Shown here: positions 33,405 through 64,000 of the stretch, one piece after another | Position numbering within the stretch: the first letter of the stretch is position 1 | Layout of the letters: every line of letters starts with the position of its first letter | From: an alpha proteobacterium HIMB59 | GTDB lineage: Bacteria > Pseudomonadota > Alphaproteobacteria > HIMB59 | DNA: 64,000 bases | Direction: 5' to 3' | Assembly (NCBI GenBank): GCA_000299115.1 | Contig: CP003801.1 | Coordinates: 558,001 to 622,000 of the forward strand | Made by a program: the position numbers and the translations under genes | The notes under the pieces: generated by a model | Database searches by the model: none | What the model saw: only the letters and a program-made list of their open reading frames with translations | What the model was told of the DNA's origin: nothing

Positions 33405-34235
33405 TCAGCTAGTCATTTTCATTGGCGAATTGTCTTTCATATTTCGAAAGATTTTAGGAAATTGCCATTGTAATTCACAGTCAACATTTGGAGCTTCATT
33501 TTTTTCATTCAGATCACTCTGACAAACAGTCCTAATCTCATAACTAAATCTCGTATTTTCAGACTTCTGTTTAGAGGAGCTATGAAGGTGACTTCCCGAA
33601 AAACAAAGTATCTCTCCGGGTTTTATGGTAACTGGCCAAATTGTTAGATTTGCCGGAAGATCTTCCAATAATTCTGGTGCAGAAGGGTAAGAGAAGTCTC
33701 CTTTTTTTCTATTTTCTAGATAAATGTTTAAGTCCCAAGTTCCAGTAGAATTTTTAACAGGCCTATTAAAATATTCAGGAAAAAAAACCATGGTATTCGT
33801 CTCTTCAATTGAACTAATGGGAGCCCACCAATTAATTTGTTGATGAATATTAGTGCCCCATGTATCTCGATGAACGCCTATCCTTGATGCTTCTCGATAT
33901 CCAAATTCATTTTTTGCTGGCGCAACACGAACGACAAACTTATCCCAGTAACTTTCTCCTTGTAAAAAGTTAATAGAGTTTAAAAAATCATAAAAAAGAT
34001 TTTTAAAAATTTCTGTATTTTTTAAGTTTGCAATTAAATCAGTACTAATTTCTTCACAGTTGGAAAGATGATGTAGTTTTTCTAATTGCCCTGAGTAATC
34101 ATTTTCAATTTTTTTTTTGATTTCAGTAATTAGTAGCTCTGTAATTTTAGATTTTTGAAAAACAAATATTTTCCCATTAAAAATATCTTTTTTAAATTGA
34201 GATAAATTTTCTATTTGCGTAATTGGAGTAAACAA
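33405..34235 (-). CDS. Fe(II)/2-oxoglutarate-dependent dioxygenase (phytanoyl-CoA type)
   Basis: 276 residues. His122 and Asp124 (VHRDTWGT) plus a distal histidine at 216 or 218 (SGSHLHSS) form the iron facial triad, and Arg229 (ENTRFSYEIR) is the likely 2-oxoglutarate anchor. The fold resembles the PhyH group. The TTG start follows the pfk stop by one base, so it is tightly coupled upstream and is 28 bp from soxB downstream. An oxidative demethylation or hydroxylation of a methylated amine feeding the sox genes is possible, but the substrate is not readable. Confidence 0.7.
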   Translation of the reverse strand: MFTPITQIENLSQFKKDIFNGKIFVFQKSKITELLITEIKKKIENDYSGQLEKLHHLSNCEEISTDLIANLKNTEIFKNLFYDFLNSINFLQGESYWDKFVVRVAPAKNEFGYREASRIGVHRDTWGTNIHQQINWWAPISSIEETNTMVFFPEYFNRPVKNSTGTWDLNIYLENRKKGDFSYPSAPELLEDLPANLTIWPVTIKPGEILCFSGSHLHSSSKQKSENTRFSYEIRTVCQSDLNEKNEAPNVDCELQWQFPKIFRNMKDNSPMKMTS

Positions 34236-61305: not shown

Positions 61306-62991
61306 TTAAGACAAATATTTCTGAGCACTTTTTTGACAGTGCTCTAAAGTAGTTCTCAGATCTTTGTTTAAAAATAAATAATCAAATATTTTTTCTCCAA
61401 TCTCTTCAATAATATTTGAATATGTGGGTAATGGGTATCTGGCCCACTCAACAAACTTTTCATCTTTTTCCATTTTATCTATTTCGTTAAATATAGGACT
61501 TAAAGCTTTTACTTCCGGATCGTTTACAACGCTAAACAAAGGAGAAGATAAACTCCCATGCTCAATATAGTATTTGATTATTTCAGGAGAAACAAACTTT
61601 CTAATATTAGACATAATAAATGGAATTTTCTCTTCAGAAATATTTGAGGGAATACCCATAGAAAATCCACCAATTGGAGAAACTTGAAATAATGAGTGCC
61701 CCGCTGGTCTGGGCAGATATCCAGTATTATTATAGGCAGGTGACTTTTTATTTAACTCAAAAAGATGAGCACGACTACTCCAATTGAAAACCATGGCAGA
61801 TTTGCCTTGGCTATAAAATTCCACACATTCATCATTAGATTGAGATGAGATATTACTTGGTGAGTAAGAAATTAATTCTTTAAGCATCTTAGCTGCATTG
61901 AAGGCAGCTTCAGATAAAAAATTTGCCTTCAAAGTGATTTTTTCAGAGTCTAGATCATAAACCTTATCACCTATATATCTCAAGTTAACATAAGGTTTAC
62001 CAAAGTTGGCCATCGCTAAAATGAAACTGGTTGCAAGAGGCTGACCTTTTTTAGCTGGCCATGAAATTGGGCTTTCAATTTCATTGCTATTATTAAGAAT
62101 TTTACATGCGGAGAATAACTCATCAAAATTTACGGGTGGTTTTATTTTATACTTCTTAAATAAATCCTGCCTATAAAATAATAAATCTGGGATAGCCTCT
62201 ATTGGAATCCCAAAAAGTTGCTTTTTGAATGAACTTGAACGTATACCTGAGTAATGAAAGTCATTTAAATTTAAACCTATTTTTTCGACATATTTGTCAA
62301 GGGGAGTTAAACAATCTAAATTTACTAGTTGACCTATCCAGGGGATATTGAAAGCAATAATATCAAATTTAGATTTAGAATTTGATTGAGAGTTTGTAAT
62401 AATTTTATTTAATAGTTTTTTCAAATCACTTTCAATGTTGAGTTCAATTTGACAATCAAAAATGTATTCAAAAAAATCTAAATTTTTTTTTATTACTTTA
62501 AATGTTGGGTTATCATTTGATAGAAATCGAATTTTTTTAAATTTTTTATTTTGATTTGTAATTACAGTTGGTGCAGGAATTATATTTCCTGCAGATAGAG
62601 AAGTTCCAAAATAGAAATTATTATCGACTCCACCAAATCCAAGTTGGGAGGCAAATTCGTTTTTAATGAGTAACAAGTATTCTGTAAATTCTTTAATCAA
62701 ATCCCCACTAGGATGTATTGAAAAAGATTTTCCAGATTTTGTCTTAGATCTCTTAATTAGTTTTTTTTCTTTGATTAATTTATTAACTTTTCTTAAACCT
62801 GTAGCAAAAGGTAACCCTGATACTTGAATAATGCTAGTTGTGGTACATATCTTGTTTTCAAGATGATTTGAAATGACATAGGAAAATATTCTCCAATCAG
62901 CATCAATAGTTTGATTGGAGACAGTTTTGTTGAATAAAATTCTTGTTTTGCTTACAAACTTTAAAAGGGTTGTTATTTCATTTCTATTCAT
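61306..62991 (-). CDS. Winged-helix regulator fused to a MalE-like solute-binding domain
   Basis: 561 residues. Residues about 30-95 form a winged helix-turn-helix (IFSYVISNHL, ICTTTSIIQVSGLPFATGL, then a basic wing KRSKTKSGKSF), MarR/GntR-like. After a helical linker, residues ~150-560 read as a family 1 extracellular solute-binding protein: FDIIAFNIPWIGQL, DLLFYRQDLFKKYKI, YSQGKSAMVFNWSSRAHLF, SPIGGFSMGIP. No signal peptide, so the binding domain must be cytoplasmic and probably senses a sugar. Divergent from a binding-protein gene with a 17-bp palindrome in between. It is the only recognisable transcription factor in the window. Confidence 0.82.
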   Translation of the reverse strand: MNRNEITTLLKFVSKTRILFNKTVSNQTIDADWRIFSYVISNHLENKICTTTSIIQVSGLPFATGLRKVNKLIKEKKLIKRSKTKSGKSFSIHPSGDLIKEFTEYLLLIKNEFASQLGFGGVDNNFYFGTSLSAGNIIPAPTVITNQNKKFKKIRFLSNDNPTFKVIKKNLDFFEYIFDCQIELNIESDLKKLLNKIITNSQSNSKSKFDIIAFNIPWIGQLVNLDCLTPLDKYVEKIGLNLNDFHYSGIRSSSFKKQLFGIPIEAIPDLLFYRQDLFKKYKIKPPVNFDELFSACKILNNSNEIESPISWPAKKGQPLATSFILAMANFGKPYVNLRYIGDKVYDLDSEKITLKANFLSEAAFNAAKMLKELISYSPSNISSQSNDECVEFYSQGKSAMVFNWSSRAHLFELNKKSPAYNNTGYLPRPAGHSLFQVSPIGGFSMGIPSNISEEKIPFIMSNIRKFVSPEIIKYYIEHGSLSSPLFSVVNDPEVKALSPIFNEIDKMEKDEKFVEWARYPLPTYSNIIEEIGEKIFDYLFLNKDLRTTLEHCQKSAQKYLS

Positions 62992-63028
62992 GGTTGAAAA
63001 ATATCTAATTTAACAGCAATTATTTAAA

Positions 63029-63045
63029 ATATTCAATTTGAATAT
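63029..63045. promoter_or_regulatory. 17-bp palindrome, candidate operator
   Basis: ATATTCAATTTGAATAT is a perfect inverted repeat with 8-bp arms around one central base. It lies midway between the fusion regulator (start 62991) and the divergent sugar-binding protein (start 63111). A shorter palindrome TAGATAATCTA sits at 63074-63084. Such a site would suit a dimeric winged-helix protein. Function inferred from position and symmetry. Confidence 0.5.
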
Positions 63046-63110
63046 ATTAGACATTATATCTCTTTTAAAATTATAGATAATCTAACCATTAGGATATAAG
63101 GAGGATATAG

Positions 63111-64000
63111 ATGAACAAACTAATCAAAGTATTAGCTGTTTTGATGTGCTTTTCTTTCGGTTCTGCTAAAGCAGTGGAAATCGTTTCCTTTAATGCAGCG
63201 TCTTCTGAGGCTTATGTGGGAGCGTTCGTAAAAGGAATTAAAGCAACAGCTGAGCAATACGGTTATGACATTACTGTTTTTGAAAATAACTATAACCAAG
63301 CTGAGCAAAACCAACAAGTTGAACAATATCTATCAAGTGGTGCACTCCCAGATGTTTTCATTTGGTGGCCACCTGATGCAGTTGCAGGCTTAGGTTCACT
63401 TAGAAAATTAGCTAAAACTGGTGTCCCAGTTTTAAAGATTAATCAATTACCGAATGAGCAGGATAAAGCATTTATCTTTGGATATGCTGGACCAGACGAT
63501 AGCCTTCGTGCTTATAACGCAGGTGAAATGATGGTTAAAGCAATGAAGATGAAACAAGCTGCAGGCGGTGAAGGTTTCAACGTAATTGCACTGTCATACC
63601 CACACTCTTACGGTGGATATGGTCTTTCTATTAATGCATTCAAACAAGCTATAGCAGGTACAGACCTGAATCTAATCGGAGATATCGGTGAAGGATTTGG
63701 TCAAGCAAATGGTTATAAGGGTGCAGCAAAACTGATCGCAAAAGTTAAAGATCAAGGTATTCATTTTGTATACGGAATGGATGATGCGATCCTAACAGGT
63801 GGTATTAAAGCTCTTGAAGAAGCTGGTTATAACGTCGACTGGTATGCAGGTACAGGTAAAAGTGGTAGCGTAGATAGCGATGCTGTTATTACTGTTGGTA
63901 CTGTATGTAATGGTGATAAGCAGATGATTACTGATGGTAAGCAATTCGGTACTACTCTTCAATCACCTCTTCATGAAGGTCAGTTAGCTATCGCTCTTGT
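63111..64000 (+). CDS. Sugar ABC transporter substrate-binding protein, 5' part
   Basis: Open from ATG 63111 to the window edge, 296 codons seen and no stop. A strong AAGGAGGA precedes the ATG. Signal peptide MNKLIKVLAVLMCFSFGSAKA, then a class I sugar-binding fold: VEIVSFNAASSEAYVGAFVKGIKATAEQYG, LPDVFIWWPPDAVAGL, ALSYPHSYGGYGLSINAFKQAI, VYGMDDAILTGGIKALEEAG. Third such protein in the window. Permease and ATPase genes are expected downstream. Divergent from the winged-helix fusion, which probably controls it. Confidence 0.9.
   Translation, partial: MNKLIKVLAVLMCFSFGSAKAVEIVSFNAASSEAYVGAFVKGIKATAEQYGYDITVFENNYNQAEQNQQVEQYLSSGALPDVFIWWPPDAVAGLGSLRKLAKTGVPVLKINQLPNEQDKAFIFGYAGPDDSLRAYNAGEMMVKAMKMKQAAGGEGFNVIALSYPHSYGGYGLSINAFKQAIAGTDLNLIGDIGEGFGQANGYKGAAKLIAKVKDQGIHFVYGMDDAILTGGIKALEEAGYNVDWYAGTGKSGSVDSDAVITVGTVCNGDKQMITDGKQFGTTLQSPLHEGQLAIAL

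Follow-up and report, generated by a model that had tools for sequence, protein, structure and literature searches.

Can a solute-binding protein of the kind used in sugar transport have become the sensor of a transcription factor inside the cell? The question is raised by the gene at 61306-62991 on the reverse strand of the window, by which we mean the whole stretch of 64,000 nucleotides analyzed here (positions 558001-622000 of a single-contig genome of 1,410,127 bases). A preliminary description of the sequence had proposed that its product joins a winged helix to a full family 1 solute-binding domain. Pfam searches, the alignment of a family profile to the structure 5iai, an AlphaFold model and structural matches to MarR proteins confirm this proposal: domain search and structure prediction found the solute-binding fold as well as the winged helix, and neither part is absent. 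The same description had called the protein the only recognizable transcription factor in 64 kb of sugar genes. The first half of this statement stands for the 35 of 54 listed open reading frames of at least 150 aa that were scanned with Pfam and is limited to these; the second half has to be given up, as glycosyltransferase, translation and one-carbon genes occupy much of the first 34 kb. An open reading frame of 276 aa at 33405-34235 of the window gave no Pfam match at E ≤ 0.001.

Domain architecture and predicted location of the protein

The gene is an open reading frame with an ATG start and a length of 561 aa. Its larger part, residues ~150-561 (61309-62544, reverse strand), is a family-1 solute-binding domain and the probable ligand sensor. 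In Pfam the protein matches SBP_bac_1 (PF01547; E 2e-18, residues 203-451) with 67.9 bits, above the curated cut-off of 26, and SBP_bac_8 with an E-value of 2.6e-15. A profile built from 12 family members aligned at its positions 155-559 with residues 29-420 of PDB entry 5iai (E 1e-57), and because of this span we take the solute-binding domain to be complete over both lobes. Further matches of the family profile were obtained with the trehalose/maltose binding protein 1eu8 (4.3e-44), MalE3 6dtq (2e-35) and the sorbitol binding protein 4rya (8.3e-32); the nearest solved relatives in the PDB are proteins named as sugar or polyol binders.

The winged-helix DNA-binding domain comprises residues 31-116 (62644-62901, reverse strand). 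In the AlphaFold model it consists of helices 31-44, 51-58 and 62-74, strands 78-82 and 90-94 and helix 96-116 (H-H-H-E-E-H), with structural matches to the MarR family over model residues ~15-120. Block means of pLDDT are 80-91 for residues 31-80 and 91-100, 73 for residues 101-110 and 64 for residues 81-90 within the wing hairpin (residues 78-94, 62710-62760, reverse strand). The third helix, residues 62-74 (62770-62808, reverse strand), is the probable recognition helix, a role that it may hold by virtue of the winged-helix fold; P61, A63, T64 and R67 are invariant in a nine-member alignment. In VIA-align the modelled winged helix superimposed on the MepR-DNA complex 4lll with 3.2 Å over 95 residues and a Z-score of 9.8, which exceeds, though not by far, the value of ~8 below which a match may reflect a common arrangement alone. 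Many other MarR proteins match as well, and model and alignments (Z up to 9.8) agree on a MarR topology. Foldseek, run with the whole model, returned a probability of 1.00 for some MarR chains, yet without any E-value ≤ 0.001. The domain had been described as 'MarR/GntR-like'; the winged helix holds, and the model and the MepR alignment narrow the designation to MarR-like alone. No Pfam helix-turn-helix family, the MarR profile included, was found at E ≤ 1 in the window protein. Some relatives gave weak matches below the cut-off to MarR_2, HTH_IclR, HTH_24 and HTH_36, with a best MarR_2 score of 18.3 bits, below the cut-off of 27.

Related winged helices were also seen in other contexts. Four response regulators from other Alphaproteobacteria (L087, L088, L089 and L090) end in one, so the same module is also joined to receiver domains. 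Stand-alone proteins of ~133-146 aa that are akin to the N-terminus of the regulator and have no binding domain are encoded at L032:3813-4247, L033:4400-4840 and L036:1-399, in the first two cases close to a gene whose exported, binding-protein-like product begins with a twin-arginine-like sequence. A site scan of these three neighborhoods found no palindrome or motif.

Hydropathy of the first 50 aa gave no signal-peptide-like start in 12 members from across the regulator family. The best 11-residue values were 0.45-1.51 in these members versus 2.66-3.02 in three exported controls; averaged over 19 residues, the 12 members reached at most 1.36 (the N-termini of L082 and L084 were cut within the open frame for this comparison). 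The absence of a signal peptide, also part of the earlier proposal, is thereby borne out. Because all 12 members lack such a start, the regulator should be located in the cytoplasm, and sequence and prediction place a DNA-binding and a solute-binding domain in a single, putatively cytoplasmic protein.

Distribution and annotation of the family

Of 52 genomes of the genus, 24 encode the complete, uninterrupted fusion, with identities of 61-100%, which excludes a sequencing error that had joined two genes, an objection raised at the outset. Among the same 52 genomes, G016, G026 and G077 carry pieces of the regulator at contig ends, and in G057 the match is to a stand-alone winged helix only. G045 encodes an additional two-domain paralogue of 40% identity (L031:10261-11961), which sits between a CUT2 operon and an SDR-M24-E1 operon and has its own near-copy of the palindrome described below towards the SDR gene. 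A scan of genome contigs yielded 27 loci with 61-91% identity to the window protein.

Two-domain relatives of 20-35% identity come from other Alphaproteobacteria, from Paraburkholderia and, in a single genome, from a different class. With a profile of the N-terminal part, the two-domain protein was found outside the genus in 4 of 385 genomes of a class sample (G265, G302, G369 and G491, with five genes in all; the own genus contributed three more matching genomes) and in 6 of 398 genomes of a phylum sample (G000, G302, G765, G813, G817 and G650, the last from another class). All other matches in both samples cover part of the winged helix only, and the four that were examined are the response regulators mentioned above. 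Among plasmid records the window protein had 45 matches at E ≤ 1e-8, of which 34 span 80% or more of its length; they come from Phaeobacter, Rhizobium, Shinella, Skermanella, Tritonibacter and Paraburkholderia, among others. A scan of viral contigs found no relative. Another family of the same order (G138, L034:3085-3617) has a diverged relative of the regulator that is truncated by the contig end, with a sulfatase-like gene and a gene for an exported family-1 binding protein close by.

Among the matches listed, annotated relatives usually bear the name 'extracellular solute-binding protein', and the one from Paraburkholderia is a 'hypothetical protein'. In NCBIfam, three of four distant members gave one weak match each, far below the cut-off, the fourth gave none and the window protein gave one spurious weak match; going by these five sequences, no NCBIfam model appears to cover the family. 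In a tree of 19 regulators and five exported proteins the regulators fall on one side, but with support of 42/21 and long outgroup branches.

A conserved palindrome between regulator and transporter

The gap 62992-63110, which separates the regulator from a divergent transporter operon, had been named as the place to look for binding of the protein. In 24 aligned clade loci it holds a perfect palindrome, ATATTCAAWTTGAATAT, at window positions 63029-63045. We regard this 17-bp element (ATATTCAATTTGAATAT) as the probable operator, judging from its conservation, and as the new element that the present analysis adds to the gap. Apart from the middle base it is the same in 23 of the 24 loci, L077 alone having one change, and 15 of its 17 columns are invariant versus 17 of 102 in the remaining gap. 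The exact 17-mer is present as a single copy in 24 of 52 genus genomes and its backward control in none; because site and gene are adjacent, this co-occurrence says little by itself, and the weight is carried by the single copy and by the conservation relative to the flanks. Every exact copy lies within ~60 bp of the 5′ end of the regulator gene. G043 is the sole genome with a full-length regulator but without the exact site, and it carries a version with a single change. The conserved palindrome adjoins the gene, and binding by a dimer of the regulator is predicted.

A copy with one mismatch was found 4.8 kb away, at 625827-625843 of the genome, where it starts on the final base of the last permease gene and occupies part of the 77-bp gap before an SDR gene. 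A second site with at most one mismatch is present in 20 of 23 clade loci and is weaker in L074 (three mismatches) and L077 (two). L070 carries an inserted second regulator, and the position of the second site lies beyond the stretch; L031, a longer stretch of the same genome, has a copy between the inserted regulator and the SDR gene. Another one-mismatch copy occurs among unrelated genes at 1143042 of the window's genome. In one clade locus only, an extra one-mismatch copy lies ~1.8 kb past the regulator stop (L073:8470).

The two sites precede different operons. The gene at 63111-64000 (forward strand, continuing to the equivalent of 64154) encodes the RbsB-like substrate-binding protein of the divergent CUT2 transporter, a likely target; its match to Peripla_BP_4 (E 1.6e-23) upholds the earlier statement that the transporter's own binding protein belongs to a different fold class. 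Genes for an ATPase and two permeases then come after it (seen in L102). Behind the second site lies an operon for an SDR protein, an M24 hydrolase, the alpha and beta subunits of a TPP-dependent E1 enzyme, a lipoyl-like protein, an aldehyde dehydrogenase and Gfo/Idh, PfkB, KduI/IolB and class II aldolase proteins. The ATPase, the permeases and the lipoyl protein were named by inspection of the sequence instead of by Pfam. The likely regulon thus reaches beyond the window and would include the catabolic operon besides the transporter.

Related sites and recurring partners in distant loci

A shared form of the site was derived by reading the DNA upstream in ten distant loci and in the paralogue, and the resulting pattern, WTYCANNNTGRAW, was scanned on these and on 11 unread loci. 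In the 11 loci (144,694 bases), for which the pattern had been fixed beforehand, we found 9 matches versus a mean of 1.89 in 100 shuffles (maximum 7), with 0 for the reversed control. The pattern was narrowed to its ATY form, ATYCANNNTGRAT, after the matches in these 11 loci were known; in this form they hold 8 matches versus 0.65 (maximum 3; 0.43 and 2 in 60 earlier shuffles). Five later loci (88,904 bases), fetched once ATYCANNNTGRAT was fixed, gave 4 matches versus 0.43 (maximum 2 of 100; 0.29 and 3 in an earlier run), and the wider WTYCANNNTGRAW gave 8 versus 1.53, with 2 for the reversed control. For the ten first-read loci the numbers are 8 versus 0.97 (maximum 4), or 1.07 (maximum 7) in another shuffle set, and all these shuffle tests overstate the evidence because loci within a lineage are not independent. 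In the annotated records among the 11 loci, 6 of 6 matches are intergenic versus 11.3% of the bases, a count that leaves out two matches in the unannotated records L135 and L137.

Taken together, 15 of the 26 distant loci contain the family-wide form ATYCA-N3-TGRAT exactly, with 20 such matches in all: 5 of the 10 first-read, 7 of the 11 further and 3 of the 5 later ones. Pairs of sites 20-21 bp apart were observed in seven loci, both exact in L082, L085 and L148 and one exact with the other a mismatch off in L131, L134, L151 and L152. Some sites in L085, L139 and L141 lie at neighboring genes and not at the regulator's own promoter.

The preliminary description had asked whether homologues always sit beside ABC sugar operons. 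They usually do: in 19 of the 26 distant loci tblastn aligned the greater part of a CUT2 ATPase. 'Always' is ruled out by loci such as L096, L138 and L139, where the stretch read holds no sugar ABC operon; in L140 an ABC permease was seen at the edge only. In L131, which is truncated where its record stops, a portion of a CUT2 binding protein remains, L098 has a divergent gene for a sugar binding protein and L141 has a CUT1 operon. The M24 gene is found with 57-68% identity in 13 of the 26 loci, accompanied by SDR in 13 of 13 and E1 alpha in 12 of 13. Because they recur jointly in distant loci, regulator, transporter and catabolic set tend to move together.

Proposed mode of action and alternative readings

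What we observe is two domains in one protein, an absent export signal, a conserved fusion, conserved sites and recurring gene partners. On this basis we consider it likely that the window protein is a cytoplasmic one-component regulator that acts through its MarR-like winged helix on the palindrome, senses a sugar or polyol with a captured CUT1-type domain and controls CUT2 and catabolic operons. The winged helix would bind the palindrome (ATATTCAAWTTGAATAT in the clade, ATYCA-N3-TGRAT across the family), presumably as a dimer, and the solute-binding domain would close around a sugar or polyol in the cytoplasm. The ligand could be the substrate that the adjoining CUT2 transporter imports or an early product of this substrate. 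Closure of the domain would alter the arrangement of the winged-helix dimer on the palindrome and so switch DNA binding or contact with RNA polymerase. The regulator would control the divergent CUT2 operon through the site at 63029-63045, and also the SDR-M24-E1 catabolic operon 4.8 kb away. We infer in particular that it is the regulator itself that binds the sites, and the same holds for its dimeric state, its ligand, the switch and the sign of regulation.

With regard to the sign, a classical MarR-type repressor that occupies the palindrome and is released by its ligand is a serious possibility, even if we lean slightly towards an activator. Most characterized MarR proteins are repressors. 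Furthermore, the transporter strand has a single sigma-70-like match (62994-63023), which would set the palindrome over the start site, in the manner of a repressor, although such matches occur at chance level in the promoter scan (3 versus 1.8). The layout at both clade sites, read by eye in AT-rich DNA, resembles that of an activator: a -10-like box begins 30-31 nt beyond the palindrome, with no visible -35 box. For the transporter operon this possible -10 box is GATAAT at 63076-63081 (forward strand), which begins 30 nt past the palindrome, was picked by eye, is absent from the promoter-scan list and recurs in 19 of the 23 other clade loci. The positions of these boxes would put the palindrome ~43-60 bases upstream of the start. 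For the target operons we give activation no more than a slight edge over repression.

The function assigned to the solute-binding domain could also differ. It might serve as a scaffold or protein-contact domain that has lost the binding of small ligands and receives its signal from, for example, a transporter subunit. Modelling did not resolve a pocket (modelled alone with a shallow alignment, the domain has a mean pLDDT of 41, and it is poor in the whole-protein model too). We nevertheless judge such a loss unlikely: both lobes are complete, and clade identity over residues 118-561 is 59-89%. Sensing of a sugar in the cytoplasm remains our preferred interpretation of this domain.

Alternatively, the palindrome could belong to a different regulator of the same genes, with the protein encoded at 61306-62991 acting otherwise. 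The exact site is indeed missing in 11 of the 26 distant loci (L081, L094, L096, L097, L098, L133, L136, L138, L140, L149 and L150). A foreign regulator is nevertheless improbable in view of the exact site that adjoins the regulator gene once per genome in 24 of 52 genus genomes and of the related site that recurs beside distant relatives whose neighbors partly differ. Finally, the database name 'extracellular solute-binding protein' could suggest a normal exported binding protein whose start was misread or whose gene was joined by a sequencing fault. This is hardly conceivable: orthologues and distant relatives conserve the winged helix at the protein level, a hydrophobic start is lacking in all 12 members compared, and 24 of 52 genus genomes carry the fusion intact.

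Relation to known systems and implications

Sensing by a solute-binding domain within a transcription factor is known in principle from SgrR, and what differs here is the type of DNA-binding domain and the family of the binding protein. DsvR of Vibrio cholerae, a relative of SgrR, is described as having an N-terminal HTH and a C-terminal SBP_bac5 domain (PMC13060122). SgrR and DsvR from Gammaproteobacteria resemble the window protein in the order of an N-terminal helix-turn-helix and a C-terminal solute-binding domain; in contrast to them, it has SBP_bac_1/SBP_bac_8, a MarR-like winged helix and CUT2 and catabolic operons as neighbors. Membership in the SgrR family was rejected, as neither SBP_bac_5 nor SgrR_N was found at E ≤ 1 in the window protein with Pfam.

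Btr of Bacillus subtilis combines a sensor domain like an iron-siderophore binding protein with an AraC-type DNA-binding domain; it shares the binding-protein-like sensor, whereas the families are AraC-type and siderophore-type there and MarR-like and sugar-type here. LacI and RbsR use the class I (RbsB-like) fold as a cytoplasmic sugar sensor together with the LacI helix-turn-helix, and thus share sensing by a binding-protein fold but differ from the MalE-like family and winged helix found here. MarR proteins have ~140 aa and bind their ligand within that domain. The regulator resembles them, MepR included, in the winged-helix fold and the palindromic site, and adds a solute-binding domain of ~410 residues. 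The CUT1 binding proteins 5iai, 1eu8 and 4rya have a homologous binding domain but are exported transport components, whereas the regulator has no signal peptide and is fused to a DNA-binding domain. A limited literature search, thin on subscription journals and thus weak evidence, did not find a fusion of a MarR-like winged helix with SBP_bac_1 described.

On balance, we favor the view that the label 'extracellular solute-binding protein' conceals a whole Proteobacterial regulator family. It would go back to a CUT1 binding protein that a MarR-like winged helix captured long ago, use the flytrap as a cytoplasmic sensor, have its own operator code, ATYCA-N3-TGRAT, in places as two sites two helical turns apart, and travel between genomes and plasmids with transporter and catabolic genes. 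It would also be a natural example of a transport protein that has become an intracellular sensor. Annotation of such proteins as exported sugar-binding proteins puts false components into transport predictions and leaves a regulator family missing from predictions of regulation, which matters for a streamlined, small-genome ocean lineage. Transporters for trehalose/maltose and alpha-glucosides are reported for the clade (PMC10308909), and these reports may rest in some measure on such regulators counted as binding proteins. The predicted operator and the compact set of likely targets make binding, ligand and regulon directly testable.

Candidate substrate of the adjoining pathway

The presence of KduI/IolB, PfkB and aldolase genes beside polyol-type dehydrogenases suggests that the substrate may be a polyol or cyclitol. 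The M24 hydrolase of the catabolic operon (L102:7709-8998) is distantly related to the DMSP lyase DddP, with a score of 103.8 bits that is far below the cut-off of 600, and its substrate may reveal the pathway.
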